The position numbers and the translations under genes are program-made. A stretch of DNA of 64,000 bases. It comes from Oceanobacillus oncorhynchi. Its GTDB lineage: Bacteria > Bacillota > Bacilli > Bacillales > Amphibacillaceae. Numbering within the stretch: the stretch's first letter is position 1; every line of letters begins with the position of its first letter. Of the stretch, positions 40,277-57,938 are shown one piece after another. The notes beneath the pieces were generated by a model that was given only the letters and a program-made list of their open reading frames with translations, was not told the DNA's origin and made no database searches. The stretch covers positions 4,464,001 through 4,528,000 of the forward strand of contig NZ_CDGG01000001.1 of NCBI RefSeq assembly GCF_000821065.1. Direction: 5' to 3'.

Positions 40277-40294
40277 CAGACAGGAGGAAATCAT

Positions 40295-41662
40295 ATGTTT
40301 AAGAAATCATTTACATTAGCTATCGTATTATTTTTAATAACAACACCCGCATACGCTCAAACACCGACTGTAGAATCATTAGAGCTTTCCATCAATCTTG
40401 TATGGGTGATGCTTGGCGCCTTTTTAGTTTTCTTTATGCACGCAGGGTTCGCTATGGTGGAATCCGGCTTTACCCGTTCAAAAAATACATTAAATATCTT
40501 AATGAAAAATTTTTTAACCATCTGTATTGCCGCTATTCTATTTTTCGCAGCCGGGTACGGGATTATGTTCGGTTCTTCCGCAGGAACTATTATTGGAACA
40601 AATGGTTTCTTTCTAACTGATGTGGAAGATATTGGTTTCTTCGTATTTCAGGCTATGTTTGTCGCAACATGCGCAACAATTATGTCAGGAGCAGTAGCAG
40701 AACGAATTAAATTAGGGAGCTATATCCTTATTGTTATTGCCATGACCACTTTTATTTACCCTGTAGTCGGACACTGGATCTGGCAGGGAGATGGCTGGTT
40801 AACAGCTCTTGGCTTTAGTGATTTCGCCGGATCTACAGTTGTTCACTTAACCGGAGCTTCTGGAGCACTTATGGTTATTTCCATTCTTGGTCCAAGGATC
40901 GGAAAATACAATGGCAAGAAAGTTAATGTTATCCCTGGACATAATTTACCTCTCGGAGCACTCGGCGTGTTTATCTTATGGTTAGGATGGTTTGGTTTCA
41001 ACGGCGGCAGTACACTAGCGGCTGATCCATCGCTTGTCCCCTATGTTATCGGAACAACCTTGCTATCCACCTCTGCTGCGTTAGTATCTTCCTCCTTCTA
41101 CACAAAATTACGATTTAAAAAAATGGATGCATCCTTATCCATGAATGGGGTTTTAGGCGGTTTAGTAGGTATAACTGCCGGCGCAGCAGAAATTTCCTTA
41201 GGCGGCTCTATTCTCGTCGGGCTGGTTTCCGGTATTTTACTAGTAGAAGCCATCCGCTTTATCGATACAAAACTGCGGTTAGACGACCCTGTAGGAGCAA
41301 TTGCAGTTCATGGCATCTGCGGAATTTGGGGTACATTAGCTATTGGATTCTTCTCGATTGATACCGGATTATTTTACGGAAATGGTTTCAGTCAGTTAGG
41401 AATTCAAGCAATCGGCGTTTCAGCAGTAATCATTTGGGTTTCTGCCACAATTGGAGGATTCACTTATGTATTAAATAAAATCTCACCCATTCGCGTATCT
41501 GCTGCAGAAGAAAAAGCCGGACTGGACTTCTCAGAACATGGTTCCAGCGCCTATCATTTTAAAGACAGTTATTTAGAAGGAACTTCAAGCCCGAAGGCAC
41601 CAATTGGTCTGGCAGAACGTTTAAACCAAAAAACACCTGTTGAAAACCCGACAAAATCTTAA
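40295..41662 (+). CDS. amtB: Ammonium transporter Amt
   Basis: Trimeric ammonium channel in the cell membrane. 455 residues with a typical N-terminal signal segment (LAIVLFLITTPAYA), eleven transmembrane segments, and the Amt signature region FAMVESGFTRSKN and DFAGSTVVHLTGASGAL with the first pore His (VVHLTGA), plus the second near AVHGICG. Pairs with the PII gene upstream. The C-terminal tail is soluble and may bind PII. Confidence 0.95.
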   Translation: MFKKSFTLAIVLFLITTPAYAQTPTVESLELSINLVWVMLGAFLVFFMHAGFAMVESGFTRSKNTLNILMKNFLTICIAAILFFAAGYGIMFGSSAGTIIGTNGFFLTDVEDIGFFVFQAMFVATCATIMSGAVAERIKLGSYILIVIAMTTFIYPVVGHWIWQGDGWLTALGFSDFAGSTVVHLTGASGALMVISILGPRIGKYNGKKVNVIPGHNLPLGALGVFILWLGWFGFNGGSTLAADPSLVPYVIGTTLLSTSAALVSSSFYTKLRFKKMDASLSMNGVLGGLVGITAGAAEISLGGSILVGLVSGILLVEAIRFIDTKLRLDDPVGAIAVHGICGIWGTLAIGFFSIDTGLFYGNGFSQLGIQAIGVSAVIIWVSATIGGFTYVLNKISPIRVSAAEEKAGLDFSEHGSSAYHFKDSYLEGTSSPKAPIGLAERLNQKTPVENPTKS

Positions 41663-41680
41663 TAATCCTTTTCTAAACTT

Positions 41681-41723
41681 AAAAACACTGCAGAGGAAAT
41701 ACTTCACTCCTGCAGTGTTTTTA
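41681..41723. terminator. Terminator after amtB
   Basis: AAAAACACTGCAG / CTGCAGTGTTTTT, bidirectional, shared with yjbC. Confidence 0.85.
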
Positions 41724-41745
41724 AGCTTTCATTAAAGAATCGCCT

Positions 41746-42342
41746 TTAATTCGATTCTTTCCGTTTTTGCATACCTTCTAAAAGGTTATCCGATTTTTCA
41801 TCTTCATTATAACGCAATACTTCATCTGAAGGCTGATATTTTTTTCCATAAATCTCTTTGTCCTTGTATGTATGAATATCTTCATACATTTTTTTCATCT
41901 GACTATAAATAACTTCCTCTGAATCACCCTGAGGAGACCAATATAAGATTTCCATCGGTGTTTCTTCATCCGTTGCCAGTGATTTGCGGTTATATCCAAT
42001 CGCTCTTGCATGACGAAAACCTTCACGGGAATAAAACTTTAATCTTTTTTCCGAGTCGGTATCATCATAATTAATCGGTTCTACTTCCAGAATAATCGCC
42101 TTATTTTTTTCTTTCAGCTTGTCTATCAGCTGATGACCAATCCCCTGCCCTCTAGTATTCGATGATACCCAGAGATAATCAATAAAAAGAAATGTATCGA
42201 ATTCCGCATACATCAATACATGTTTTGGACTCTCATCTTTAAAATAGACATCGCCCTTTTCCGCCAGTAAAAGCTCCATATGCTTTTTAGATTTCATCTC
42301 TTCTACCGGAAAATAATCGTTCAGCTTTTCATACCAATTCAT
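41746..42342 (-). CDS. yjbC: GNAT-family acetyltransferase YjbC
   Basis: 198 residues with an acetyl-CoA loop RGQGIGHQLI (about 64-73) and a long C-terminal extension (from about 130) containing the YjbC-like block NYDDTDSEKRLKFYSREGF upstream. In B. subtilis yjbC is directly before spx; here the PII-amt operon lies between them, a local rearrangement. Acceptor unknown. Confidence 0.85.
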   Translation of the reverse strand: MNWYEKLNDYFPVEEMKSKKHMELLLAEKGDVYFKDESPKHVLMYAEFDTFLFIDYLWVSSNTRGQGIGHQLIDKLKEKNKAIILEVEPINYDDTDSEKRLKFYSREGFRHARAIGYNRKSLATDEETPMEILYWSPQGDSEEVIYSQMKKMYEDIHTYKDKEIYGKKYQPSDEVLRYNEDEKSDNLLEGMQKRKESN

Positions 42343-42733
42343 TCAGGTTGCTCCTTTTCGATTATTATCGTTTCATTATAACCGATTTCATTTTAATTGT
42401 GAAATGATAGCAGGAATCCATAATTTCCTTTCTTAACACGACAAGGTTTTGCTGATTTTAGAAAAGCAATCAAAATAAAGCACTTCTCTGTTTATGGTTC
42501 CTTCTTTTCATACTAATTTCAGATTGCTATAAAATGAAACTTCATTCAGCGGGAGTTTTACAGGCGGTTCTCCGCGATAAAAAAAGAGCAGCCTTCAATC
42601 TTTCACAGGCCGCTGAAAAAAGCCCGGTAAAAACAAGCCGTCCAATAACTTTCTTTTGGACTGCGTGATTTTTACCTGCTTTTTTAAGTTCCCTCTTCCA
42701 GATGAAAACTGCTTCCTGATTGATTTCGATGGT
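42343..42733. other. Intergenic region upstream of yjbC, with repeat
   Basis: Holds the yjbC promoter side (42343-42480), the short hairpin repeat at 42531-42580 and the region after larE. An open frame on the minus strand (42595-42786) overlaps larE and lacks an SD. Confidence 0.5.
42531..42580. repeat. Short hairpin repeat, copy A
   Basis: AAACTTCATTCAGCGGGAG then TTTTACAGGCGGTTCTCCGC and GATAAA. GCGG-GAG pairs with CTCCGC. Other copies at 49721, 50028, 54021, and a weak one at 6876. Confidence 0.7.
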
Positions 42734-43573
42734 TTAAGCGTGCGCTGACAGTTTTGTTTCCCATTGATCCTGCTCGATAACTTCATTCATGCTTCCTGTA
42801 CGGTAGCCAAGCAAATCGACGGATACATAATCAAACCCAAAGCTGACCAGCTTATTTTGGATTTCTTCCTTTTCATCAAGTAATTCCAATATTTTGTCTC
42901 CAGCTACTTCGATACGCGCTACATTATCATGATAGCGCACACGCACCTCTTCAAAACCAAGCCCTTTTAAATACAATTCAGCTTGATCGACTTGCTGAAC
43001 GATTTGTTTGTTTAGCTTCGTACCATAAGGAAAACGAGAAGCCAGGCTGCAGGATGCCACTTTATCCCAAACAGGAAGCTTCAATTCCTTCGCAAGTGCG
43101 CGAACTTCTGTTTTATAAAAGTCTGCTTCCTGCAGCACACTGCGGATACCTTCCTCTGTTCTTGCTTTTAATCCCGGACGAAAATCCGCTTCATCATCCA
43201 TAATCATGCCATCTAAAACGTACGAATAACCCATTTCTTCAGCCAGTTTATTCAGATGTGTGTAAAGCAGTTTTTTACTGAAATACCAGCTCTCCGGATT
43301 ATTTGCTATAATATCTGGATTTTCCAGTTCTTTCATTTCTGTTTGATGCACACGGACCCCCAGATTTTCAGCTAATTGTACACTGGCTTCAAATTCAGAG
43401 TCGCGAAAAAGCTCAGAGTTTACAACCACGGCTAATACATTGTCCCCAAGCTCTTCCTGCGCCCGCTTCAATACAACTGCACTATCTACTCCGCCAGAAA
43501 AGGCAACCATTACGCGGCCCATACCCTTCAAAATATTGCCTAAGTGTTTATTTTTTTCTTGCAGATTATTCAT
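42734..43573 (-). CDS. larE: LarE, sacrificial sulfur transferase for nickel-pincer cofactor
   Basis: Adds sulfur to the pyridinium bis-carboxylate precursor of the nickel-pincer nucleotide. 279 residues; PP-loop SGGVDS at 26-31 for adenylation, and Cys175 in VASCSLASRFPYG, next to the position of the sacrificial Cys176 of L. plantarum LarE. Start ATG 43573 (GTG 43585 overlaps the SD GGGGAG). It follows the LarA homologue in the same direction. LarB and LarC, which make the precursor and insert nickel, are not in the window. Confidence 0.88.
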   Translation of the reverse strand: MNNLQEKNKHLGNILKGMGRVMVAFSGGVDSAVVLKRAQEELGDNVLAVVVNSELFRDSEFEASVQLAENLGVRVHQTEMKELENPDIIANNPESWYFSKKLLYTHLNKLAEEMGYSYVLDGMIMDDEADFRPGLKARTEEGIRSVLQEADFYKTEVRALAKELKLPVWDKVASCSLASRFPYGTKLNKQIVQQVDQAELYLKGLGFEEVRVRYHDNVARIEVAGDKILELLDEKEEIQNKLVSFGFDYVSVDLLGYRTGSMNEVIEQDQWETKLSAHA

Positions 43574-43778
43574 TTTTACATACACTCCCCAACAAGCAAT
43601 TTATTGTTACTGATTCCATCTCAGCATCTTAAACTTCTATTAAAATGTTTTAAATAAACTTCTTTTTGATTATAGGCGACAAATAATTTCTTCTTCTTTT
43701 CCACTTTCATTTTAACATAGCCAACTCGTCCATTCACAATGATTAAAATAAATGAAGTAACCTAACTTGCCTTTCTAT

Positions 43779-45029
43779 TTACATTGGAGGAAAATAGCCC
43801 TCTGCATCAAATTCCATTTGATGCAAATCCTCTAATACCTCAATGTTTTCATTCTCTTTCAATTCATTGAAAATCACTTCTGATACAAATAACTCTCCGA
43901 TATGAAGCGTGTTTGGAATCCGCACGATTCTTGCCTCTTCCGACGGGACGCCCCAATTGGCGCGGAGTGCTGCTTCTAATGCTTCCCGATCACTATCAAG
44001 GACGATTGGAATTTTAGCTCTGTCTAAAAATGTACTTGTTACAACGTTTTCATTCATGGCTTTTAAATCAATTACTTCAAATAAACGTTTTGTTGTCAAA
44101 TCCGCCAGACCAATCCCTAATGCATTCCCATGGCTGGCCTCACTTAATTTAGAAGCAATCACGTATTTGACACTAGGCTTTTCAGGTTCCTCTACTCCCA
44201 GCACCCGTATACGGCCAATAATGTTTGTATCCATGCCTGTTCCACTATGATTTTTGCCTATTTCATCAACAACTAATATATCCATCTCATCAACCGGAAG
44301 ACTAGGCATTAAAGCAAATGCACGTTTTAATAATTCTCTTTCACGTTCTTCAATTTGATTAGGATCAATCGCTTCAATAATCGCGGTTTCTTCATGCGCA
44401 TTTTCTACAATCGCTATACCAAACAGTGTATTTGAATGACTGATCGCAACCTTGCCAACCTCAGGCATCATATCACGAATTCCTCTGATGCCATGTGTAT
44501 GAAGCGCTAACGCCTGCTTATGTTTTCCCATACCAATCGATGCCATTTTCAAGATACCACTTTCAATATCCTTTTTAAAATCGGTATGCGGCTTCACACG
44601 CCCCATCACGATAATACCATCCGCTTCATATGCATGCCTATCAACATAAACAGGAATACCAGCTGATGTTTTGCCTACTTCTACAACTTCCATGGATGAA
44701 CGAATTTCGCAGCCGGTTGACACCTCTGTTACCCCAAGTCCATCAAGTACTTCGATTTGACCTTCCGCAGTAGCTCCGCCATGACTTCCCATCGCCGGGA
44801 TAATAAATGGTGTTGCACCTCTTTTTTTAATTTCATCCGCTACACCCTTGACAATAAGCGGAATATTAGCAATCCCGCGGCTTCCGACAGTAATTGCAAT
44901 TTCCATGCCGGGTTTGATTTTCTTATCCGCATTCACATGGTTGAATTGCTCTGAAACAGTTCCTGTAATATCGTCCAGACTTTCCACTTCAAATTTTTGT
45001 CTAATTTTTGCCATTTTCGGTAAAGACAT
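43779..45029 (-). CDS. LarA homologue (DUF2088), predicted nickel-pincer racemase/epimerase
   Basis: Family of lactate racemase and other 2-hydroxyacid racemases. 416 residues. Residues that correspond by motif to LarA catalytic and cofactor groups are present: H83 (AMGSHGGAT), H148 (KPHTDF), K169 (GMGK, cofactor-attaching Lys) and H177/H179 (LHTHG, Ni ligand). It is near but distinct from lactate racemase; the operon with a PdxA2-type dehydrogenase and DUF1537 kinase suggests a C2-epimerase for a four-carbon sugar acid rather than lactate. Start follows AAAGGAGC. Confidence 0.78.
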   Translation of the reverse strand: MSLPKMAKIRQKFEVESLDDITGTVSEQFNHVNADKKIKPGMEIAITVGSRGIANIPLIVKGVADEIKKRGATPFIIPAMGSHGGATAEGQIEVLDGLGVTEVSTGCEIRSSMEVVEVGKTSAGIPVYVDRHAYEADGIIVMGRVKPHTDFKKDIESGILKMASIGMGKHKQALALHTHGIRGIRDMMPEVGKVAISHSNTLFGIAIVENAHEETAIIEAIDPNQIEERERELLKRAFALMPSLPVDEMDILVVDEIGKNHSGTGMDTNIIGRIRVLGVEEPEKPSVKYVIASKLSEASHGNALGIGLADLTTKRLFEVIDLKAMNENVVTSTFLDRAKIPIVLDSDREALEAALRANWGVPSEEARIVRIPNTLHIGELFVSEVIFNELKENENIEVLEDLHQMEFDAEGYFPPM

Positions 45030-45147
45030 TGTTTACAGCTCCTTTCAAATTACGTTTATCTAAAATCGATGAAATATTCCCTGTCTTAATGAGGAATTTA
45101 TTCTTCCGTAACCCCCAGTCTCATACTTGCCAGCTTTTCATGCCAAG

Positions 45148-45183
45148 AAGCAAGAGGCTGATCACAACCTCTTGCTCAATTTT
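45148..45183. terminator. Hairpin between pdxA2 and larA homologue
   Basis: AGCAAGAGG / CCTCTTGCT followed by a T-run only on the plus strand (45178-45183). It may attenuate or process the transcript rather than stop the minus-strand operon. Confidence 0.5.
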
Positions 45184-46188
45184 TTAGGATTCATTTTCTG
45201 GAGCTAATTCAACTGCCATACGCAGCGCTTCTTTTAATGACAGCTCGTCAGCAATATTTTTGCCGGCAATATCAAATGCCGTCCCATGGTCAACACTCGT
45301 ACGGATAGTTGGAAGTCCAACTGTAATATTCACGCCAGCTTCCAGACCTAATACTTTAATCGGGCCATGTCCCTGGTCATGATACTGCGCCACAACGATA
45401 TCAAAATCACCGCGTTTCGCTCTAAAGAACAGTGTATCTGCCGGAAGCGGCCCTTGCACATTGATTCCTTCAGCCTGCGCTTTTTCAATGGCCGGAATGA
45501 TTTTTTCTTCTTCTTCCCCGTTACCGAAAAGTCCGTTTTCTCCAGCATGCGGATTGATGCCGCAAACTGCGATGCGAGGAGATTCAATGCCTGCTTTTTG
45601 TAATGTTTCATGCGCAAGCCTGATCACTGTATATTGACGCTCTGCATTATTTTTCTTAATGGCATCCATCAGTCCAACATGAGTGGTTGCGTGAATCACT
45701 CTTAAACCTGGCGCAGAGAGCATCATTGCGAAATCTTTTGTATTTGTCAGTTCTGCTAAAATTTCTGTATGACCAGGATAAACATGACCAGCTTTATGAA
45801 GTGCTTCTTTGTTTAAAGGAGCTGTACAAATTCCTTGAATTGCCCCTTCATTTGCATAGCTGATTGCCTTTTCCAAGTAGCGGAATGCAGCATTTCCCGC
45901 TTCAGGGGAAACCTGCCCCCATGGCAAATCTTCAGAAACCAAATCTAAATCAATAATATCAATTATGCCATATTCATATACTGCTTCCTCTGGTTTAGTA
46001 ATGCTGTTTACTTTAAGCTCTACATTTGTTACTTCCAGTGCCCTTTTTAATATTTTTGCATCACCAACTACAAATGGATGGCTTGTTTCATAAATATGTT
46101 TATCATTTAAAGATTTGACAATAATCTCCGGCCCCACTCCTGAAGGGTCACCCATTGTAATCGCAATCGTTGGTTGTTTCGCAGCCAT
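45184..46188 (-). CDS. pdxA2: PdxA2-type 4-phospho-D-threonate/erythronate dehydrogenase
   Basis: PdxA-family NAD-dependent oxidative decarboxylase. In the DUF1537-linked pathway it turns 4-phospho-D-threonate or 4-phospho-D-erythronate into dihydroxyacetone phosphate. 334 residues, with TMGDPSGVGPEI (11-22), HPGHTEILAEL (substrate His), GINPHAGE and YHDQGHGPIKVLGLEAGVNIT with the metal-binding Asp/His. Directly after the kinase (78 bases), which assigns it to sugar-acid catabolism rather than pyridoxine synthesis. Confidence 0.87.
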   Translation of the reverse strand: MAAKQPTIAITMGDPSGVGPEIIVKSLNDKHIYETSHPFVVGDAKILKRALEVTNVELKVNSITKPEEAVYEYGIIDIIDLDLVSEDLPWGQVSPEAGNAAFRYLEKAISYANEGAIQGICTAPLNKEALHKAGHVYPGHTEILAELTNTKDFAMMLSAPGLRVIHATTHVGLMDAIKKNNAERQYTVIRLAHETLQKAGIESPRIAVCGINPHAGENGLFGNGEEEEKIIPAIEKAQAEGINVQGPLPADTLFFRAKRGDFDIVVAQYHDQGHGPIKVLGLEAGVNITVGLPTIRTSVDHGTAFDIAGKNIADELSLKEALRMAVELAPENES

Positions 46189-46266
46189 AATAAATTCCTC
46201 CTAATTATCCTAATCTTTTTTTGCCAAGCATATTGTAATTACCAACCATACACCTGGCGTTATATG

Positions 46267-47589
46267 TTACTTTTTATTGTTCATCACAGGTCCCTGCACT
46301 TTTGTAATTGTTTCAAGGGCCTTGGATAGCGCTTGTTCCGTTCCAAATGCGCCTGCTTTGGTTACAACAGGAAGTCCATCGAATAATCCGCCGAAAAGCT
46401 GCCCATAAGGGATACCGGGCTCCACTTCTCCAATCACCCGAATTCCTTCTCCTTTTAATGCTTTACAGGTTGCACCTGAAATGTCGCCGCCGGTTAAGAC
46501 TGCACCACTAATATCATTCGCTTCAATCAACTGACAAGCAATCATTCCCATGGATTCAGCAATTGTATAACCTACATCAAAGTTTGATAAATCAAGCTCC
46601 TGCTTCAGCTGCTTTACTCGATTTCTCGCTTCTTGTCCGCGATCCGTTGTTATTACTAAATCCCCTTTTGCCAATAACGCCTGGCCAGACTGAACGATAC
46701 GATCTATTTCATACTTTCGTTTGTCGTTGTCAAAGAACGCTTCAGGAGAAATAACAATCTCTTCTACATTATTCCCTTTTTTCAAATCATGAATCTGCTG
46801 ATCGGTAATCATGTTCACACTGCCTGCTACAACCAGTACTGGCGGACGTTCATCTGATTGGTTGCTCTGCAATACCTCTTTCCGGTTACCGCCTGTACTG
46901 GAAAGATGAGAGGCTACCCCCGCCGATCCGACCCAGAGAAATTTTTCTTTCAATGCTTCGGCCGCTTCAACAATCGCCTTCAATTCTTCATCTGTTGTTG
47001 CGTCAATGACAATAATTTGAGATGAGTTTGCAGCAGTCAACTTCAACATTTTTTCCAGTATATGATCTTTTCCTTTTTGCACATCCGAAATGGAAATCAA
47101 TTGGATATCCCGTTTACTCTGTTCCTCCAATAATTCTGGAAGGTAGCTCTGCTTTACAGGACAGGAAGGATCATTGGACATTTCCGAGTCTGCTAACAGC
47201 ACCCCATTCACATAGTGTTTTCCTTCCACCGTTGTCCGTTTGCTTTTCGGAAAGGCCGGTACTACAAAAGAGGTTTTGAATTGAAAGACGTCCATTACTG
47301 CATCGATTTCCTGACCGATGTTCCCTCTCATTGTAGAATCGATTTTCTTAAAAACGTTTGTTACCCCTAATCTGTTCAATTCTGTAGATAGCTTAAAAAC
47401 AATATCATATGCTTTTTGAAAATCGAGTGCACGGCTATCTGAATTTAAAACGATGACATCTTCACTTAAATGCGATGATTGTAATTCGGTGTCTGAAAAA
47501 AGTACGGTCGTACTTAACCCTCTGTTTGCAAATTGAACACCTGTATCATTTGCACCAGTTAAGTCATCTGCAATCACTGCCAGTTCCAA
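46267..47589 (-). CDS. DUF1537 four-carbon acid sugar kinase
   Basis: Phosphorylates a four-carbon acid sugar (D-threonate or D-erythronate in studied members) at O4. The 440 residues have the N-terminal binding domain starting with IADDLTGANDTGVQFA (6-21), KKIDSTMRGNIGQEID, and the C-terminal nucleotide domain LTGGDISGATCKALKG and KAGAFGTEQAL. Translation starts with TTG 47589, behind AAGGGGG. First gene of the catabolic operon (kinase, pdxA2, larA homologue, larE). Confidence 0.88.
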   Translation of the reverse strand: MELAVIADDLTGANDTGVQFANRGLSTTVLFSDTELQSSHLSEDVIVLNSDSRALDFQKAYDIVFKLSTELNRLGVTNVFKKIDSTMRGNIGQEIDAVMDVFQFKTSFVVPAFPKSKRTTVEGKHYVNGVLLADSEMSNDPSCPVKQSYLPELLEEQSKRDIQLISISDVQKGKDHILEKMLKLTAANSSQIIVIDATTDEELKAIVEAAEALKEKFLWVGSAGVASHLSSTGGNRKEVLQSNQSDERPPVLVVAGSVNMITDQQIHDLKKGNNVEEIVISPEAFFDNDKRKYEIDRIVQSGQALLAKGDLVITTDRGQEARNRVKQLKQELDLSNFDVGYTIAESMGMIACQLIEANDISGAVLTGGDISGATCKALKGEGIRVIGEVEPGIPYGQLFGGLFDGLPVVTKAGAFGTEQALSKALETITKVQGPVMNNKK

Positions 47590-47692
47590 CTCTATTTACC
47601 CCCTTCTGAACAATCTCCGTTTTTCTTTTATTGTTTAACTTTTCTTGTATGATATTTATCTTACTTTAATTATAAGGAGGTTGCTTATACAC

Positions 47693-47706
47693 TAATAACG
47701 TTTTCA
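47693..47706 (-). promoter_or_regulatory. cre-like box upstream of the kinase operon
   Basis: On the minus strand TGAAAACGTTATTA, one mismatch from TGWAANCGNTNWCA, 104 bases before the kinase start. Candidate CcpA site. Confidence 0.5.
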
Positions 47707-47814
47707 TTCATAATGATAAACCAATCCGTTGTATTTTGCAATATATTTTATTTGTTTTATTTCCTTTTTAATAACATGTTGTATTTAGCATCATATTGTA
47801 ATTTTATTGTCAAA

Positions 47815-47845
47815 AATAAAACGCAAGCTGTTATTTCAGCTTGCG
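47815..47845 (-). terminator. Terminator containing the regulator stop codon
   Basis: CGCAAGCTG (47822-47830) and CAGCTTGCG (47837-47845) pair; the stop codon (47831-47833 on the plus strand) is in the loop. The minus transcript ends with TTTTATTTTT. Confidence 0.7.
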
Positions 47846-49600
47846 CCATAAGGTAGAACGATTGATTCCCAAGCGTTTTGCTGCTCTGGATTGATTCATT
47901 CCTTCTTCTTCAAGAACCTTTATGATGACTTGTTTCTCAATTTCTTCTAATGTACCGCTCATATCCACATACGATAACACATCATTCTGCTTTGCTTGTT
48001 GTTCTACCCGCTTAAACACAGTATCCACTTCTGTTTTCTCAATATAATAAGATTGAGATTCTAAAAACAATTGTTCAATGACATATTTTAATTGCCCAAC
48101 ATTTCCGGGCCAATCATAATCAATCAGCTGCTCCAGTGCATCGTTGCGGATTCCGACAACTTCATTGCCATATTTCGGATGCAGATCAGAAATAAACACA
48201 TGAACTAAATACTCAATATCCTCTCTGCGTTCCCGCAGCGGAGGTATATGAATATGAGATTGAGCTAACAATTGAAACAACTCGCGATGGAAGGTGCCAT
48301 TTTTAATTATTTTTTCCATATTATCCCCAGAAGAAATAAGCCATTGCGGATTCCGGTTATTTTCATTCTGAAGAAATTGCAATAACTCCTTCTGCATGTA
48401 AGGTTTCAATTTATCAATATTTTTCAAGAAGAATATACTGTTAGCATATTTTTGAAAAAAGCTTTCCTTCATCAGGTCTTTCCATTGTTCTGCAGTTATC
48501 ACATCACAGTGCAAGGTAATCAGCGGTTTATCTGCTGTTTGCCTTTTCAAATAAATAGAGTGGACAACCAGTTCTTTGCCATTTCCCTGCTCTCCCGAAA
48601 CCCAGACCGGGCCGTCAAGTTCTCCGAAATGCTCGATTTGATCCATTACATGATGAATAACATCACTTTTCCCTAAAATTGGAGTACGGGCAACAAAGGT
48701 GTGTAATTCAATAACATTGGAATCTATATGTTCACTTTTCGTAATCGTTTGGGGCGAATGTGCATTTTTAAAAAATAAGATGGTTGCGTCTTGAATCGGG
48801 CATGTCGTTATTTCCCATAATTTATTATTGATGGAAAGCGTTTTTACTTGCTTCTCATTCGCTAAGGTTGTTTCCTGTATAAGCTTCTTAACATCAGTAT
48901 TGTCTAACTTTAACCAATGAAACTCATGATAAAATTGCTCATTCCCATAAATCACTTCATTGTCCTGATTAAAAACACCGATAGCCTGCTCTTCACTGTC
49001 AAGAATGGTTTCCATAAATGCGATATTCTGTTGCAATCTTGAAAATAAGCGGTAGGATCTTCGTGTCTCTTCCAGAGCGTCTATCACTGCCTCTTTTCCC
49101 GATGTAATCAATACTCCGGTCATTCCTAATTGTTTAGCCGTCTGCACAGTGACAACGTCCCCAATTACAACCTCGTAACCATCCTTACTTAATTCCAGTA
49201 GTTTTTCTTTTACTTCGCTGTCTCTCGTAATTGTTAATGTTTTAATATCTAAATCCAGCAGTTCAGATATGGTAGCAGCACCTTGGGTAATATTTGAAAA
49301 TCCCACAATAGCAGCTTTACCGGAAAATCCTTTCACAAGTGTTAAAATTCGCAGCACATCATAGCCGGAAACTTGGATATCTATTACCGGTATCGATACG
49401 GCCTCTTGGATCATGGAAGCTGTACCCCCGCGGCTGACGATAACATGGTACCCTTCATTTTCAGCATTCTTTGCAATAGCCACACCTTCTGACAGGTTAC
49501 CTAATTCCACTTGTAATTCAATATCCTCTACTTCTTGGCTAACTTCTTTCATCATTTCAAGCAGTCCCTCATACGGGACAATTACTAATACTTTTATCAT
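47831..49600 (-). CDS. PrpR_N-PAS-AAA+-Fis regulator with degenerate sigma-54 activator core
   Basis: Transcription regulator for the acid-sugar operon. 589 residues: PrpR_N ligand domain (1-180), PAS (about 193-290), AAA+ (305-480), Fis-type HTH (551-589, SRAAKRLGINRSTLWRKL). Walker A is GEQGNGKE (336-343), but the GAFTGA loop is missing (DVITAEQWKDLMKESFF in that place), the Walker B acidic pair is KN (FFLKNIDKL), while RERREDI and WPGN stay. It therefore probably does not act with sigma-54. The gene is divergent from the GntP gene at 50553 and lies directly before the kinase operon. Confidence 0.8.
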   Translation of the reverse strand: MIKVLVIVPYEGLLEMMKEVSQEVEDIELQVELGNLSEGVAIAKNAENEGYHVIVSRGGTASMIQEAVSIPVIDIQVSGYDVLRILTLVKGFSGKAAIVGFSNITQGAATISELLDLDIKTLTITRDSEVKEKLLELSKDGYEVVIGDVVTVQTAKQLGMTGVLITSGKEAVIDALEETRRSYRLFSRLQQNIAFMETILDSEEQAIGVFNQDNEVIYGNEQFYHEFHWLKLDNTDVKKLIQETTLANEKQVKTLSINNKLWEITTCPIQDATILFFKNAHSPQTITKSEHIDSNVIELHTFVARTPILGKSDVIHHVMDQIEHFGELDGPVWVSGEQGNGKELVVHSIYLKRQTADKPLITLHCDVITAEQWKDLMKESFFQKYANSIFFLKNIDKLKPYMQKELLQFLQNENNRNPQWLISSGDNMEKIIKNGTFHRELFQLLAQSHIHIPPLRERREDIEYLVHVFISDLHPKYGNEVVGIRNDALEQLIDYDWPGNVGQLKYVIEQLFLESQSYYIEKTEVDTVFKRVEQQAKQNDVLSYVDMSGTLEEIEKQVIIKVLEEEGMNQSRAAKRLGINRSTLWRKLK

Positions 49601-49720
49601 TCAACTTCACCTTCTGTCGAAAAAATCAAGTTATCGATTTCTTTATTTTTTTAAGAAAAGAGCTTATTTTGTTCCATTGTATCAAGAAAAATTCGGGTAA
49701 GTAATCTGAATTCTTGTTCT

Positions 49721-49775
49721 CTATAAAACAAAACTTCATTCAGCGGGGGTTTTACGGGCGGTTCTCCGTGATAAA
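49721..49775. repeat. Short hairpin repeat, copy B
   Basis: AAACTTCATTCAGCGGGGG followed by TTTTACGGGCGGTTCTCCGTG and ATAAA. A diverged inverted piece of the same family lies at about 49905-49945 (ACTCCCGCTAAATG and AACGGAGA). Confidence 0.65.
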
Positions 49776-50027
49776 AATAAATGACAAGATAATTTCCTTG
49801 TTTTCATCCATTTGAATAGACGTACCTGCCCTTTCATACACATTTCTTATTTAATTTTTTATCACGCAATCGTTCCTTATGTAACCCCTTTGGTTTATTT
49901 TGCATCGAACTCCCGCTAAATGTCCAGTTAAACGGAGATTTAGCTTCTTGATTCCACTGCCAAACTATTGTTTCTGGCTACTACCAATTAAAACATATTT
50001 CAACAGTTTCATTTGCATTTTCACCGA

Positions 50028-50078
50028 AAGCACGAAATTTCATTCAGAGGAGTTTTACGAGCGATTCTCCGTGATAAA
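50028..50078. repeat. Short hairpin repeat, copy C
   Basis: AAATTTCATTCAGAGGAGTT and TTACGAGCGATTCTCCGTG, then ATAAA. With copy B it fills part of the 49601-50552 gap; the rest is AT-rich leader. Confidence 0.6.
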
Positions 50079-50148
50079 TGCCCAATCAGAAAACAAGGCA
50101 TACATATTCATGTTGAAAAAAGTAACAAAATTAATATAAAATATCTAC

Positions 50149-50177
50149 TTGACAAGTTCTGTTGAAGAATATAGAAT
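50149..50177 (+). promoter_or_regulatory. Promoter of the first GntP-family gene
   Basis: TTGACA (50149-50154), 17 bases, TAGAAT (50172-50177), giving a leader of about 370 bases. A very short frame (MHILIIFF) with a weak SD lies at 50380-50406 in the leader. Confidence 0.6.
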
Positions 50178-50522
50178 TCATTACAGCACAATGTGATGCG
50201 ATAAATAACATTTCTCATTATTTTTTAAAGATTTAATTATTTAATTAAAAAAAGTGTTGCAATTTTGGTAATTCAATATATATTAGAAATCCTGCTGTTC
50301 ACTTATATACGCGGAGAGGTGTATGAACTTTTATTTTTAAGTTTTATTTAAGCACTTACAATCGTCCGCAAAAGGGGTGATGCACATTCTAATTATATTT
50401 TTTTAAATTGAAATCGCATTCTTTTTGCATAAATAACAAATGCTGAATAAAAGTTGCTACATTCTAGAATCAAATGTGCTTTTATGAGAAATGGTATCCA
50501 TCGTTTTTATTTTTGTTTCAAA

Positions 50523-50536
50523 TGTAAACATTTACA
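50523..50536 (+). promoter_or_regulatory. cre-like palindrome before the first GntP gene
   Basis: TGTAAACATTTACA, one mismatch from the CcpA consensus TGWAANCGNTNWCA, and a fully symmetric 14-mer. It is 16 bases before the start codon. Confidence 0.55.
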
Positions 50537-50552
50537 AAGGGGGAGAAATATT

Positions 50553-51926
50553 ATGGAACCATCAGGTATCCAAATGGTTTCCGGGTTAATACTTGGGGTA
50601 ATTGTACTAATTTTATTAGTTTTAAAGACAAAGATTCACGCATTTCTAGCACTAATCATTGCTGCTTCCATCGCAGGCCTTGTTGGGGGGATGGTCCCAG
50701 GCGATGTTGCTGCTGCTATCTCAGAAGGTTTTGGCAGTACGCTTGCATCTATCGGGATTGTCATTGGCCTGGGCGTCATGATGGGACGCATCCTTGAAAT
50801 TACCGGTGCTGCTGAAACACTCGCTTATTCATTAATTAAATTTGTCGGAAAGAAAAAAGAAGAATGGGCAATGGCGATTGCAGGATATATCATTTCAATT
50901 CCAATATTTGTTGACTCTGCTTTCGTTATTTTAAATCCTTTAGTTAAAACGCTTTCTAGAAAAACAGGAAAATCTGTTATCTCCATCGGTGTTGCCTTAG
51001 CCGTTGGTCTCGTACTCACTCATACATTAGTTCCTCCTACGCCAGGACCGTTAGGAGTAGCTGGCATTTTCGGAGTAGATATCGGCATTATGATTGCATT
51101 AGGCCTTACGCTGGCGATTCCGCTTATGATTGCAGGTGTTCTTTATGCAAAATGGCTAGGAAAAAGAATTTACCAGCTGCCTGATGATTCCGAAGCAGGC
51201 TTCACTAGACCAGATCAGCATATGGGTTATCCAGAAATGGTTGAAGTCATTAACGAAAGAGCAAAGGATCTTCCATCTTTTGGACGTTCATTCTTGCCCA
51301 TTTTAATTCCTATTATTCTGATTTTCTTGAACACAACGCTGGATGCTTTAGAGCTAACAGAAGGTGTTTATGGAATTTTCATCTTCTTAGGTCAGCCGAT
51401 TATAGCCGTTGCACTAGGTCTTATCGTTGCAATCTATGCGCTGGCGGGTAACCGCGGCCGGCTAAATACATTGGAGGAAATGGAAAGAGGAATTCAGGAT
51501 GCGGGTATAATTCTGCTTGTTACCGGTGCCGGCGGTGCGCTTGGAAACGTATTACGTACAAGTGGAACAGGAGATTATATTGCACAGCAAATTGCTGAAC
51601 TGCCGCTGCCAGCTATTCTGATTCCGTTCTTCGTTTCGACAATGGTCCGTCTGGTTCAAGGAAGCGGAACAGTTGCTATGATTACAGCAGCATCCATTTC
51701 AGCACCGATTTTGGCACAGATGGATGTTAATATGGCACTAGCTGCGTCTGCTGCAGCACTCGGATCTTTAATTTTCTCTTACTTTAACGACAGTTTCTAC
51801 TGGGTTGTGAACCGTATGTTAGGAATCAAGAACGTGAAAGAACAAATCATGGTTTGGTCCGTACCAACTACAATCATGTGGTTTATAGGATTTATTTGTC
51901 TTCTGATTGCCAACATGATTCTTTAA
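50553..51926 (+). CDS. GntP-family sugar-acid permease 1
   Basis: Proton symporter family for gluconate and related sugar acids. 457 residues with 12-14 hydrophobic segments and family motifs (VGLVLTHTLVPPTPGPLGVAGIFG with the conserved PPTPGP, and QGSGTVAMITAAS). The start at 50553 follows AAAGGGGGAG. Divergent from the regulator and next to the acid-sugar operon, so it probably imports its substrate. Confidence 0.88.
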   Translation: MEPSGIQMVSGLILGVIVLILLVLKTKIHAFLALIIAASIAGLVGGMVPGDVAAAISEGFGSTLASIGIVIGLGVMMGRILEITGAAETLAYSLIKFVGKKKEEWAMAIAGYIISIPIFVDSAFVILNPLVKTLSRKTGKSVISIGVALAVGLVLTHTLVPPTPGPLGVAGIFGVDIGIMIALGLTLAIPLMIAGVLYAKWLGKRIYQLPDDSEAGFTRPDQHMGYPEMVEVINERAKDLPSFGRSFLPILIPIILIFLNTTLDALELTEGVYGIFIFLGQPIIAVALGLIVAIYALAGNRGRLNTLEEMERGIQDAGIILLVTGAGGALGNVLRTSGTGDYIAQQIAELPLPAILIPFFVSTMVRLVQGSGTVAMITAASISAPILAQMDVNMALAASAAALGSLIFSYFNDSFYWVVNRMLGIKNVKEQIMVWSVPTTIMWFIGFICLLIANMIL

Positions 51927-52021
51927 CTATAACAAAATGAAGGGAAGGAGAAGTGATTTTTTCCCTCCCCCTTCAACAAACTTATCCCGATTTTTTTCTG
52001 CCTGCTGGCATCGTAAAGTGC

Positions 52022-52065
52022 AAAAAACCAACCATTTATAGAATCAATAAATGGTTGGTTTTTTG
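52022..52065. terminator. Terminator between the two GntP-family genes
   Basis: AAAAACCAACCATTTAT / ATAAATGGTTGGTTTTT, strong, bidirectional. Confidence 0.9.
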
Positions 52066-52180
52066 TGTTAAATTTAAATAGAAGAATGTAAGAACCAAAT
52101 TCAGCTGCATACGTCGCCTGCACCTTTCACAGTACTGCCACACTTCTCCGCATCACTTTTATCGGACTAGTTCTGCCTCT

Positions 52181-53527
52181 TTAAATGATGATATCCAATA
52201 ATAAAGTACATACTAGACCAGATACAGCTACAATGGTTGAAAGTACCGTATATGTTCCAAATGCTTCTTTTAAGGACATCCCCAGAGATTCTTTAACCAT
52301 CCAGAAGCCAGCATCGTTTACATGAGAGGCAATGGCACTGCCTGCACCGGTTGCAAGTGTAACGAGTTCCAAGTTAACGTCCGGGATTCCGGCAAGTGAT
52401 GGAATAACTAACCCTGCAGTAGTTAATGTTGCAACTGTCCCGGAACCTAAACAAATACGTAAAATCGCTGCAATCATCCACGCAAAAAAGACGGGAGACA
52501 TCATGGAACCTGCAAAGATATCAGCAACGTAATCTCCGACACCTCCATCAATAAGCACCTGCTTTAACGCTCCGCCGCCACCGATGATCAGCAGCAGCAT
52601 TCCTAATGCGTTAATCGCTGAAGAGCAGGAATCCATTAATTTTTTAACAGGAATATTTCTTCTTATTCCCATCGTATAAATTGCCAGTAATAAAGAAAGT
52701 GTCATAGCTGTTGAAGAATTACCAATGAAACGAATCACATTCATAAATAAATTATCAGAAATGCCCAAAGCTGGCTGAATCATATCAACAATCGCACCTA
52801 AAGCCATTAATATTACAGGAAACAATGCTGTAAATAAGCTAATTCCAAAACCAGGCGTTTCCTCTAATTTGAACGTTTTCTGGACACCAAACGATTCGCT
52901 GCCTTCTCTGGTAAATGCAGTAGGCACAATTTTTTGCGCAAGCTTTGGATATAAAATTCCTGCAATAATTACGGTCGGAATAGCAACAATAATTCCATAA
53001 ATTAAAACCAACCCAATATTTGCGCCATATTCTGAAGCTACCGCTGTCGGACCAGGATGCGGAGGCAAGAAAGCATGTGTTGCCAGCGCAGCTGTAACCA
53101 TCGGCAATCCTAATTTCACGATAGAAATTTTTAACTCTTTTGCTATCGAGAATATAATTGGAACAAGTAATACGATGGCTACTTCCAGGAATAAGGCGAT
53201 TCCAACGATAAATGAAGCAAATAGAACTGCCCATTGAATTCTTTTCTCACCAAATTTGTCAATCAACGTTATCGCAATTCGATTAGCCCCGCCGGAATCA
53301 GCAATAAGTCTTCCAAGCATAGCGCCCATCCCAAAGATTAACCCGATGTGGCCAAGCGTTCCTCCTAATCCGTTCTCAATCGATTCAACAACTTCTCCCA
53401 TAGGCATTCCAAGTGCTAAAGCTACTATAAATGAAACAATAACCAATGAAACAAATGTATTTAATTTAAATTTCATAATAAAAATAAGTAATAAAAGTAC
53501 CCCTAGTGCAACAATTAATAATGGCAT
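52181..53527 (-). CDS. GntP-family sugar-acid permease 2
   Basis: 448 residues, about 12 hydrophobic segments and GntP motifs (AALATHAFLPPHPGPTAVASEYGA, then GSGTVATLTTAG and DAGFWMVKESLG). The sequence is distant from permease 1, so it may take a different substrate or isomer (for example the C2 epimer handled by the LarA homologue). The start follows CAGGGGGAC. Convergent with permease 1. Confidence 0.88.
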   Translation of the reverse strand: MPLLIVALGVLLLLIFIMKFKLNTFVSLVIVSFIVALALGMPMGEVVESIENGLGGTLGHIGLIFGMGAMLGRLIADSGGANRIAITLIDKFGEKRIQWAVLFASFIVGIALFLEVAIVLLVPIIFSIAKELKISIVKLGLPMVTAALATHAFLPPHPGPTAVASEYGANIGLVLIYGIIVAIPTVIIAGILYPKLAQKIVPTAFTREGSESFGVQKTFKLEETPGFGISLFTALFPVILMALGAIVDMIQPALGISDNLFMNVIRFIGNSSTAMTLSLLLAIYTMGIRRNIPVKKLMDSCSSAINALGMLLLIIGGGGALKQVLIDGGVGDYVADIFAGSMMSPVFFAWMIAAILRICLGSGTVATLTTAGLVIPSLAGIPDVNLELVTLATGAGSAIASHVNDAGFWMVKESLGMSLKEAFGTYTVLSTIVAVSGLVCTLLLDIII

Positions 53528-53674
53528 CTGTCTGTCCCCCTGATGTAAGTTTTAGCAGTTCTATTTGTTTATGATAAAGATGTTGTAATTTTTAATTCTC
53601 TATAAATGACATCATGATAAGCTTCTGCGGTATACGCTTTCAACAAAAATACAAATTTGTTTTTTCTCCTTGAA

Positions 53675-53688
53675 TGAGAGTGCTTACA
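53675..53688. promoter_or_regulatory. cre-like box in the leader of permease 2
   Basis: TGAGAGTGCTTACA, two mismatches from the CcpA consensus. About 148 bases before the start. Confidence 0.35.
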
Positions 53689-53694
53689 AACGAA

Positions 53695-53735
53695 ATAGAT
53701 TAAAATGGAAAGTCCATTTATTTTAATCTATGTTC
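53695..53735. repeat. Imperfect inverted repeat in the leader of permease 2
   Basis: ATAGATTAAAATGGA and TCCATTTATTTTAATCTAT pair with a 4-base bulge. Candidate RNA hairpin or operator. Confidence 0.55.
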
Positions 53736-53886
53736 CTCATTTGAAAATCACATACCGCCGGAATATAGAATGAATCAGAAACCTTCCCCTTCTGATGTCA
53801 AAGATATAAATTCACAACACTTTTCTTTTTCACTGCCTGAAATAGTTTAGATATTACTTTAATTGTTGTTTTTGGCAACAAAAAAC

Positions 53887-53915
53887 ATTCTATACTTTGT
53901 GTATATTATTGTCAA
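53887..53915 (-). promoter_or_regulatory. Promoter of permease 2
   Basis: Minus strand TTGACA (53915-53910), 17 bases, TAGAAT (53892-53887). Same hexamers and spacing as the permease 1 promoter; again a leader of about 350 bases. The remaining 53528-54264 gap holds a hairpin repeat and a terminator. Confidence 0.6.
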
Positions 53916-54020
53916 GAGAACAAACACTATTATTATGTTGGTTTTTGCGACAGTTTCTATTTTTTGTTAGATTAAGTTTCAAGTTTCGTGTGTAAGAAAA
54001 TAAGCAGGTGTGGCGGATAC

Positions 54021-54074
54021 ATAAAACGAATTTCACTCATTAGGAGTTTTACGGACGGTTCTCCGTGATTAAAG
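54021..54074. repeat. Short hairpin repeat, copy D
   Basis: AATTTCACTCATTAGGAGTT and TTACGGACGGTTCTCCGTG, then ATTAAA. Confidence 0.6.
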
Positions 54075-54147
54075 TGTGATGAGATCGAAGCAGTGCACAG
54101 ATTTAGATAAAAGAATGGAGTCAGCAAGAATATTCATCGAAGAAATA

Positions 54148-54191
54148 AAAACAGCCCGACACTGTTCAAAATTCCGGTGTCAGGCTGTTCC
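54148..54191 (-). terminator. Terminator of the DUF4015 gene
   Basis: AACAGCC-GACAC / GTGTC-GGCTGTT, T-run on the minus strand. Confidence 0.75.
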
Positions 54192-54264
54192 AATATCATT
54201 TGATTTTTGATTTTTTTCTTATTTACTCGGTCGAGCAGTTTTCATTCATCCTGGAGCTTTTCCA

Positions 54265-55491
54265 TCAGTCTTCTTTTCCAATTAAATAATCTACATTTTC
54301 CGTATAGGTATTACCTGCATTCCACAACAGGAATTCATTAATATCATTTTCATATAATGCTTGTATTTGTGCTTCTACTTCTTCTTTGCCATATTCAAAT
54401 GTCGGTCCGCTGTATAACCATGGCGCACTAAAATCCTGCAACCATGGACGAGATACAGGCGGTTCATCCAAAGCACCCAAAACTTCATTTTCTACTTGGG
54501 AATATTCATCGACAAGAGCATATGGTTCTTCATCTGGATTAGAAAGTCCAAAATAAGAACCCCAATGGCTTGGATAAATCATAGATGAAATAATATCTAC
54601 ATTCTCAGAGATTTTTGAGAAGTTTTGGCCAATTCCCGGTGTTTCCTCTATCGTTGCTGCATACCCGAAAATATCTACGGATACATCAACATCATAATCG
54701 CTTAGTTCTTCACGGGCATAAGCAACAAAATCAGTCACTGCTTCGACACGCTTTTGAACATTATCCATATCTAAATCTGCATAATCCCCCATGGAATATT
54801 CTAAATCCTCATCTCTATTTTCAAAGCCCTCCGGATATCGAACATAGTCAAATTGTATTTCTTTAAAGCCCATTTCTGCGGCCATTTTAGCTATTTCTAC
54901 ATTGTATTCCCATACTTCTTTTTCAAAAGGATTCACAAATGCATGACCGCTGCCGTTTGTCCAAACTTCTCCATTTTCTTTAAAAGATAGATCAGGACGG
55001 GCTTCAGCTAAAATATTATCTTTAAAAACAACAATACGCGCAATTGGATAAATTTCTTCTTGCTCTAATCGTTCCATCATTGCATCGGGGTCAGAAATAA
55101 ATGTTGTGCCTATTTCTTCATACACTGATCCTTCCTCAGGGGCAAATGTGATATGTCCGTAATCCTCTTTCACATCGATTACCATTGAATTTAAATCTGT
55201 GGAAGATACTAAATCTATTAAACTTTCCATTTTTTCTCCGCCGGCTGAATTACCAGTAACATAGATTCCCCGTACTGCATCCGGATATGTAAAATTATAA
55301 TCAGACGTAATAACAAAGCGGCTAAACCGTTGGGAAGTATCTATTTCTTCTAAGCTCGTAGACCGCTCTTTATGCGATTTTGCTACTACATCCGCGCCAT
55401 CCTCTGCATGAACTTCATTTGCTTGCCCCAGACCGACCAATGCTGCACCAGCAACAACAAAAGCCGTTACCAGATTCCTCCATTTTTTCAT
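54265..55491 (-). CDS. Secreted putative glycoside hydrolase (DUF4015)
   Basis: 408 residues with a signal peptide (MKKWRNLVTAFVVAGAALVGL... cleaved near AHA-like VHAED) and a TIM-barrel-type DUF4015 domain: AVRGIYVTGNSAGG, SMVIDVKEDYGHI, FKEIQFDYVRYP, VSVDIFGYAA and SSMIYPSHW. Possible catalytic acids lie in FDYVRYP and VDIFGY. In the database this family is called a putative glycosyl hydrolase; substrate unknown, probably cell-wall or exopolysaccharide. Monocistronic. Confidence 0.85.
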   Translation of the reverse strand: MKKWRNLVTAFVVAGAALVGLGQANEVHAEDGADVVAKSHKERSTSLEEIDTSQRFSRFVITSDYNFTYPDAVRGIYVTGNSAGGEKMESLIDLVSSTDLNSMVIDVKEDYGHITFAPEEGSVYEEIGTTFISDPDAMMERLEQEEIYPIARIVVFKDNILAEARPDLSFKENGEVWTNGSGHAFVNPFEKEVWEYNVEIAKMAAEMGFKEIQFDYVRYPEGFENRDEDLEYSMGDYADLDMDNVQKRVEAVTDFVAYAREELSDYDVDVSVDIFGYAATIEETPGIGQNFSKISENVDIISSMIYPSHWGSYFGLSNPDEEPYALVDEYSQVENEVLGALDEPPVSRPWLQDFSAPWLYSGPTFEYGKEEVEAQIQALYENDINEFLLWNAGNTYTENVDYLIGKED

Positions 55492-55689
55492 CCAATCAAT
55501 CTCCCATTTGAATATATTTTATTACTAGTATAAATGAAGGAAGGAAGTTTTTAAAAGGAAAACTCGTAAAAAGTGGAAAAAAGTTTTATTTTGTAGGTAA
55601 ATATACATCCAAAAAAATATCGCTGGCTATTTTGTCGATTTTCTTATGTATAGGTTACTTGCAATTTGTTAAAAATAAACTTATAATAA

Positions 55690-55901
55690 ACTTAATTTAA
55701 TAGCAAAAGCATTGAAGAAGATATAGTACATCTTTCCCGCTGATTTAAGAGAGCTTGTGGTGCTGAAAACAAGTATCATGGGAAGGTGGAATTGGGCTTT
55801 GGAGCTTTATTTTACTAATGAAGTGATTCTATTTATAGAATAATCAGGGTGGCAACGCGGTTCATTCGTCCCTATTTTGGGAATGAGTGGGCTTTTTTTA
55901 T
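55690..55901 (+). promoter_or_regulatory. T-box riboswitch (tryptophan) of trpS
   Basis: Leader with AG-bulge/GGTG elements (AGAGAGCTTGTGGTG near 55749), specifier TGG at 55793-55795 (in GAATTGGGCTTTGGAG), T-box AGGGTGGCAACGCGG at 55846-55860 and a terminator near 55862-55900 ending in a T-run. Uncharged tRNA-Trp would favour readthrough into trpS. Confidence 0.93.
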
Positions 55902-55977
55902 TGCCTGGGAAATAATTCAACATTTAATCCTGATTCCTCAAGCTCACACAGCGGATATCTTTTCTGCTTGGAAATAA

Positions 55978-56985
<1,008 letters not shown>

Positions 56986-56987
56986 TG

Positions 56988-57034
56988 CTAAAAAAACAAG
57001 GAAACGATTTTTTACCGTTTCCTTGTTTTTTTAA
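56988..57034. terminator. Terminator between trpS and yjbA
   Basis: AAAAAAACAAGGAAACG / CGTTTCCTTGTTTTTTT, bidirectional. Confidence 0.9.
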
Positions 57035-57792: not shown

Positions 57793-57938
57793 TTCCTAAC
57801 CCCACCTTATCTGCCATTTATTATCTTTTAGTTCAAAAGAAAAATTTGATGCGTTATATTCTTGTTACGTTCTATATCTTTTGAACTTGAAGGTTAAAAT
57901 ACATTATGACCATCTCTCATATTTTTATGCGAAATCAC

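Follow-up and report, generated by a model that had tools for sequence, protein, structure and literature searches.

Two groups of described systems resemble the locus reported here. D-threonate and D-erythronate are catabolized by a kinase, DtnK or DenK, together with the dehydrogenase PdxA2 (Zhang et al. 2016, as cited in PMC10971088). The LarA superfamily of nickel-pincer nucleotide (NPN) enzymes includes the lactate racemase LarA of L. plantarum, LarA of I. pallida, and the D-gluconate 2-epimerase GntE (4NAR is GntE2 of T. maritima; PMC7583248). We analyzed a stretch of 64,000 nucleotides from Oceanobacillus oncorhynchi (positions 4,464,001–4,528,000 of a single-contig genome of 4.6 Mb, below called the window) in which genes resembling both groups form one island. 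Read from right to left, its minus strand carries the genes of a GntP permease, a PrpR_N regulator, a DUF1537 kinase, a PdxA-family dehydrogenase, a LarA homologue, and LarE, and a second GntP permease is encoded on the plus strand. All genes named in the original prediction for this DNA are present, each with a profile match. We suggest, with a probability of about 0.55, that the LarA homologue functions as a nickel-pincer C2-epimerase, which would convert D-erythronate to D-threonate and so feed a kinase–dehydrogenase pair of the DtnK/PdxA2 type, which would yield dihydroxyacetone phosphate (DHAP) and CO2.

The LarA homologue (43779..45029, minus strand) is a member of the LarA superfamily and of the NCBIfam family "NPN isomerase, group 22", as the Lar_N domain PF09861 (40.2/23.3, here and below score/cut-off) and the curated model NF052515 (549.1/400) are both matched above cut-off. 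The NCBIfam group numbers are assumed to follow PMC7583248. Besides Lar_N the protein matches, barely, the Pfam family DUF362 (25.3/24), and its C-terminal half has no Pfam match. The predicted model (pLDDT 94.8) has the two-domain LarA fold, and the 12 solved structures that match it best are all LarA-family proteins. In a profile alignment of weak score R51, H83, H148, K161, and H177 correspond to R75, H108, H174, K184, and H200 of L. plantarum LarA. The two catalytic histidines H83 and H148 are kept in 148 of 148 aligned relatives and so are R51, K161, and H177, the Arg, Lys, and His whose NPN-binding roles are taken from PMC7583248. A profile search of the solved structures was not used, its top matches being at chance level with a LarA-like entry only at E 0.75.

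Compared with the described members of the superfamily, the island protein stands apart. Its identity to LarA of L. plantarum and LarA of I. pallida is 12 to 18%, it has no Phe-Phe loop, and Asp72 is replaced. GntE (LarAH19/20) is from a different LarA group. Behind the second histidine, groups 18–20 have a loop with E-V or E-S where the island protein has T149-D150, and in contrast to the GntE systems the partner kinase is a DUF1537 protein and the predicted substrate has four carbons. The single-histidine enzymes LarA_Sp and LarA_Bw (PMC12611868) have Asn in place of the second histidine, whereas every one of the 148 group-22 rows has His there.

The likeness to D-threonate/D-erythronate catabolism lies in the DUF1537 kinase encoded beside a PdxA-family dehydrogenase, to which the island adds a candidate epimerase of the LarA family and an NPN sulfur transferase. 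The kinase (46267..47589, minus strand), predicted to act on O4 of D-threonate or D-erythronate, matches PF07005 (238.8/25) and PF17042 (133.2/28.3), which bears out its earlier assignment to DUF1537; its best NCBIfam model is the D-threonate kinase NF047819 (348.9/450) and its closest solved structure PDB 4xfm. The dehydrogenase (45184..46188, minus strand; PF04166, 376.5/27), a predicted 4-phospho-D-threonate (erythronate) 3-dehydrogenase, has the motifs GHTE, NPHAG, and YHDQGH and scores 357.9/583 against the NCBIfam D-threonate 4-phosphate dehydrogenase. Its closest solved relatives are 4jqp (4-hydroxythreonine-4-phosphate dehydrogenase, 442.7 bits) and 6e85 (D-threonate 4-phosphate dehydrogenase, 311.5 bits). 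The label "PdxA2-type" given to it earlier is thus supported by the context and by the closest solved structures, but not by the score, which stays under the equivalog models. Both proteins look like the DtnK/DenK-PdxA2 pair known for the two acids (PMC10971088); since their scores are below the equivalog cut-offs, we file them as working like this pair and not as proven members. A role of the island PdxA in vitamin B6 synthesis is unlikely because the genome has PdxS but no PdxJ.

The L-threonate route was also considered. None of the seven island proteins is of the LtnD, OtnI, or OtnC type according to Pfam and NCBIfam scans, and the second DUF1537 protein of the genome, at a separate locus (L226), is closest to the OiaK/OtnK kind and has reductase/dehydrogenase-like and decarboxylase-like partners, all below cut-offs; this route was therefore rejected as the leading explanation. 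A second PdxA gene of the genome, in the stretch 1574060–1580000 (L193), lies between genes of a tripartite-tricarboxylate-type transporter, recognized by eye, and DhaK-like (378.5/406) and DhaL (189.8/138) genes, and probably belongs to another acid-sugar route.

Evidence for a functional connection comes from the gene neighbourhoods of relatives (loci and genomes are numbered with L and G). With kinase and PdxA profiles, every frame was searched in three sets: the best 80 of 589 loci from elsewhere, 70 loci from the family of the source organism, and the window. The family loci are 70 of the 71 places with a group-22 gene (larA22) above cut-off, the 71st being the window; weaker places in G113 and second pieces in G029 and G154 are not counted, and the stretch from G154 spans both pieces. 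Of the best 80 of 589 loci, 20 have both partners, as do 5 of the 70 family loci; one further locus has PdxA alone. The linkage depends on identity to the window's protein: among the best 80 it is found in 16 of 19 loci at 52% or more (L010–L028), including the nearest named relative, Oceanobacillus caeni (L010, 93%), versus 4 of the 61 below, and in the family set in all five loci at 88% or more versus none of the 65 at 60% or less. With the window included there are 26 linked rows, and in 25 of them larA, kinase, and PdxA genes are co-directional. Given this recurrence and common direction, the kinase–PdxA–LarA set is not due to chance, and the conserved linkage whose absence the original prediction had named as refuting is in fact found. 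It reaches Bacillota, Rubrobacter, and Bacteroidota (Prolixibacteraceae), with differing gene orders and transporters. Moreover, in a tree of 148 of the 151 rows (L027, L186, and L189, with split or cut larA22, were excluded) all 26 linked rows fall into one branch of 43 rows, weakly supported with a value of 88 in the Shimodaira–Hasegawa-like approximate likelihood ratio test (SH-aLRT), 21 of them into a clade of 26 rows (SH-aLRT 99), and none among the other 105. Linkage to DUF1537 and PdxA hence follows the clade. Regarding the partners themselves, NCBIfam scans covered 8 of the 26 linked kinases and 3 of the 26 linked PdxA proteins: for each of the eight kinases, that of the window included, D-threonate kinase is the best model, with no score above its cut-off, and the 3-oxo-tetronate kinase model is lower or unlisted for all eight.

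A contrast is provided by a sister clade of 45 rows from the same family. In three of its loci (L134, L130, and L120) a short-chain dehydrogenase/reductase (SDR) gene follows larA22 and the gene of an FGGY-like kinase stands further on; larB and larC are near larA22 in L134, larB and a larE in L130. These neighbours were scanned with profiles in L134 alone and read by eye in L120 and L130. Best fits in L134 are D-mannonate oxidoreductase for the SDR (271.1/281) and FGGY gluconokinase for the kinase (489.3/648.55), neither reaching the cut-off; such surroundings would be expected of a gluconate/mannonate 2-epimerase. Judged from these neighbours the partner kinase changes with the larA22 clade, and this gives the four-carbon guess its contrast. 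The residues at which window-type and sister rows differ cleanly include 150 (D versus A), 300, 326, 359, and 360; the comparison used 47 rows picked by locus number, 45 of which are the sister clade and two of which (L128 and L131) are outside it. Residue 150 is in the loop behind the second histidine, which has been named for specificity (PMC7583248). More tentatively, and with slightly less than even confidence, we propose that group 22 as a whole may be a large family of aldonate 2-epimerases whose clades switch substrate together with the kinase, six-carbon acids going with an FGGY gluconokinase-like partner and four-carbon acids with DUF1537 and PdxA2; the window's clade would then be the first nickel enzyme to pool D-erythronate and D-threonate toward DHAP, across Bacillaceae, Rubrobacter, and Prolixibacteraceae.

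An enzyme of this type would require the NPN cofactor. The island gene larE (42734..43585, minus strand; TIGR00268, 353.6 bits, cut-off 150) encodes the ATP-dependent sacrificial sulfur transferase of NPN synthesis, and the genome encodes LarB (305.9/175), LarC part 1 (225.1/90), LarC part 2 (150/50), and a second LarE (G000:C1:2450507), to which the island copy is 76% identical by blastp. The second lar locus (2445405–2453821) comprises a CdaR-type regulator, a glycerate kinase, a KdgT-like permease, LarA1, LarE, LarC part 1, LarB, and LarC part 2. A lack of larB and larC, which had earlier been considered a refuting finding, is thereby excluded, both genes being present at this 2.45 Mb locus. 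LarA1 fits the lactate racemase model NF033504 (556.6/460). By eye its W357-Q358 aligns with Q359 of the glycerate-preferring LarAH43 (PMC11770544) and LarA1 is therefore predicted to be a glycerate racemase. A lactate or glycerate racemase is a less likely role for the island protein, as LarA1 in the glycerate kinase operon already serves those acids. Among 159 genomes of the family, 47 have both LarA22 and LarC, 7 LarA22 only, 3 LarC only, and 102 neither (counted by hand; the Fisher p of this 2 × 2 table ignores kinship). LarC is present in all six family genomes with a DUF1537-linked LarA22, the source genome included, and in six loci of Burkholderiales/Betaproteobacteria (L037–L039, L042, L043, and L061) larC, larE, and larB are found behind larA22.

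Taking these observations together, we propose the following pathway. D-threonate and D-erythronate differ at C2 only, and the C3 oxidation by PdxA2 requires the D configuration at C3; a C2-epimerase would thus join exactly these two acids to one kinase–dehydrogenase pair. The acids would be imported by the GntP permeases. LarE, with LarB and LarC encoded elsewhere in the genome, would make the NPN cofactor. In the LarA homologue H83 and H148 would take and give the proton of the C2 hydroxyl group while NPN would take and return the C2 hydride, so that C2 is inverted and C3 unchanged. The kinase would then phosphorylate O4 of one epimer, and the dehydrogenase would oxidize C3 to a 3-oxo acid, which would yield DHAP by loss of CO2. 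Epimerization would be important if one of the C2 epimers is favoured by the kinase or by the dehydrogenase. Epimerization more likely precedes phosphorylation because sugar-acid kinases are the partners in both clades, and the useful direction would be from D-erythronate to D-threonate because the kinase is D-threonate-like. The original interpretation of the island as an epimerase pathway for these acids is partly supported, by the LarA fold, the two histidines, the NPN residues, the cofactor genes, the linkage, and the D-threonate-kinase-like partner. An L-isomer as substrate, which it also allowed, is unlikely because the reaction of PdxA depends on a D-configured C3. As to the chemistry, 4-deoxy-threonate and 4-deoxy-erythronate have been epimerized in vitro by LarA enzymes (PMC11770544).

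Several observations weigh against this pathway. The kinase and the dehydrogenase are both below the equivalog cut-offs as given above, and in KEGG both enzyme families are listed for D-threonate as well as for D-erythronate (PMC13185595), so that an epimerase would not be strictly needed. With LarA1 the profile alignment has a weak score (probability 6.3, E 0.0058); support for the residue pairing therefore comes largely from the fold and from K161 and H177 being spaced as K184 and H200 are. The catalytic D72 of LarA has no Asp partner and pairs with the invariant Ser50, for which reason the LarA homologue is not filed under the assayed catalytic type of LarA, Mar2, and GntE2 (D72, H108, H174, and K298) and can only be said to work like it; K298 pairs, at the end of the weak alignment, with R275, a position which is R in 47, K in 12, and P in 48 of the 148 rows. 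In addition, seven family genomes with group-22 genes (G003, G094, G096, G098, G102, G103, and G147; loci L141, L185, L184, L187, L179, L188, and L176) have no LarB, LarC, or LarE above cut-off in profile searches, so that NPN use is not certain for the whole of group 22. Their LarA22 proteins keep all five cofactor and catalytic residues and in six of the seven genomes belong to a clade of 14 rows distant from the window's clade; the cofactor may be taken up, made otherwise, or unused in these genomes. With respect to the linkage, five rows of the window's own 26-row clade (L018, L020, L172, L178, and L182) are without kinase and PdxA by profile, although tblastn found pieces of PdxA, not counted by the profile run, in L018 and also in L027. 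The linked rows are related by descent, and L010 and L125 represent a single locus, so that p-values are descriptive only. In none of the five nearest linked family loci is larE directly behind larA. Finally, PMC7583248 cautions that gene context does not always help in assigning LarA substrates.

Three other explanations were considered. The same gene linkage would result if the LarA homologue acted on the phosphorylated acid, interconverting 4-phospho-D-erythronate and 4-phospho-D-threonate, with a broad kinase feeding a strict dehydrogenase. The invariant K146 and K259 and the frequent R273 (132 of 148) could meet a phosphate, and larA is nearer to pdxA than to the kinase gene in 20 of the 26 linked rows. 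On the contrary, the FGGY gluconokinase-like kinase and the mannonate-oxidoreductase-like SDR of L134 in the sister clade suit free aldonates, and none of the LarA enzymes covered in the parts of the literature examined was assayed on a phosphorylated substrate. We therefore regard a phosphorylated substrate as unlikely.

Alternatively, the LarA homologue might racemize or epimerize some other 2-hydroxy acid that enters through the same permeases, for instance tartrate, glycerate, or an acid with a longer or branched chain; D-threonate would then not be the substrate of the kinase and PdxA. That the latter two stay below the curated cut-offs fits such a role, as do the aldehyde dehydrogenase and iron alcohol dehydrogenase genes in L017, L021, L023, and the unlinked L172 and the 2-hydroxyacid dehydrogenase gene in L021 and L023. 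However, glycerate and lactate are served by LarA1, the OiaK/OtnK-kind DUF1537 protein has its own partners at L226 so that the two kinase types are kept apart, and the scanned linked kinases without exception fit D-threonate kinase best; a different acid of this sort thus appears improbable to us. Least of all do we expect that larA22 has no part in the D-threonate pathway beside it, which would be complete on its own. The five rows of the same clade without pathway genes and the adjoining larE, which is not common to the nearest relatives, would agree with such a neighbourhood, but a linkage kept across Bacillota, Rubrobacter, and Prolixibacteraceae with different orders and transporters is hard to explain by drift, and we consider this very improbable.

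If the proposed C2-epimerization of D-erythronate and D-threonate is correct, the use of both acids with one kinase and one dehydrogenase would be explained, and the few reactions known for nickel-pincer enzymes would be extended by one from the four-carbon branch. No report of a LarA-type epimerase for threonate or erythronate was found in the literature searched, to which Table S1 of PMC7583248 with the gene contexts of each LarA group did not belong; within the same limit the earlier statement that no pathway with this gene set has been described agrees with the literature. The gene linkage itself may be tabulated in that 2020 supplement. Group 22 is a named but uncharacterized LarA group: it is not among the 13 proteins assayed in Table 1 of PMC7583248, if the NCBIfam numbering follows that paper, and is not named in the part of PMC11770544 that was searched. 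For this group the partner kinase, read by clade, gives a concrete and cheap substrate guess. Relatives of the island protein are numerous, with at least 7998 protein clusters at E 1e-10 or better, not all of which need be group 22.

Two further gene arrangements were seen around larA22 in relatives. The aldehyde dehydrogenase and iron alcohol dehydrogenase genes of L017, L021, L023, and L172 follow larA22 (9258–11961 in L017, where the former is lactaldehyde-dehydrogenase-like), as would fit a further source of the acid, from an alcohol or an aldehyde. A module of two genes (about 130 and 340 residues) stands beside group-22 larA in seven Clostridia-type or Bacillota loci (L028, L031, L044, L046, L051, L062, and L063; for example, L063 6518–7967); none of the five members scanned matches a Pfam family above cut-off, and the one large member scanned against NCBIfam has no match there.

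The remaining genes of the island concern regulation and transport. The PrpR_N regulator (47831..49600, minus strand; PF06506, 190.5), with an AAA domain that keeps the Walker A motif and a Fis-type helix-turn-helix domain (HTH_8), is found at the same place in relatives and is the likely regulator of the pathway. A motif scan found no GAFTGA loop in it or in 13 relatives from linked loci, and the nine sigma-54 promoter sites within 40000–58000 are all inside genes. The two findings agree, and the regulator is likely not sigma-54-dependent, a label which would then be wrong.

Both GntP permeases placed beside the island by the original prediction are present, with the correction that the first is on the plus strand (50553..51926; PF02447, 424) and probably starts not at 50454 but at the ATG at 50553, which has a ribosome-binding site. 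The second (52181..53527, minus strand) matches PF02447 (555.4) and TIGR00791 (595.3/292.75). L014 encodes a relative of permease 1 (85%), as does the Rubrobacter locus L024 (61%), where the gene comes immediately after larA, and permease 2 is found upstream of the regulator in 13 mapped Bacillaceae-type loci (L010–L013, L015, L018, L022, L026, L125, L135, L151, L152, and L154). Near linked larA genes a GntP gene is upstream in most Bacillaceae loci, and tripartite ATP-independent periplasmic (TRAP)-type transporters, so labelled from one scanned member of the gene cluster, which is DctM, occur in Alkalihalobacillus, Brevibacillus, and a metagenome-assembled genome of Bacillota. Beside the same core genes, relatives have one or the other of the two GntP permeases or a TRAP-type transporter, which speaks neither for nor against the earlier proposal that the two permeases import different isomers. 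The promoter-like and terminator scans of the region were at chance level (39 versus 35.1 and 8 versus 8.1, respectively); at this chance-level count of promoter-like sites, both GntP genes share the promoter-like upstream hexamers TTGACA-17-TAGAAT at 50149–50177 (plus strand) and 53915–53887 (minus strand).

A conserved motif of 26 bases with the core TTTTACGGRCGGTTCTCCGTGATAAA was considered as an operator and rejected: 47 copies with up to two mismatches over the genome, compared with none for the reversed control, mark it as a dispersed repeat. Its copies in and at the edges of the 11.5 kb island are all between genes and on the plus strand, at 42556–42581, 49750–49775, 50053–50078, and 54047–54072.

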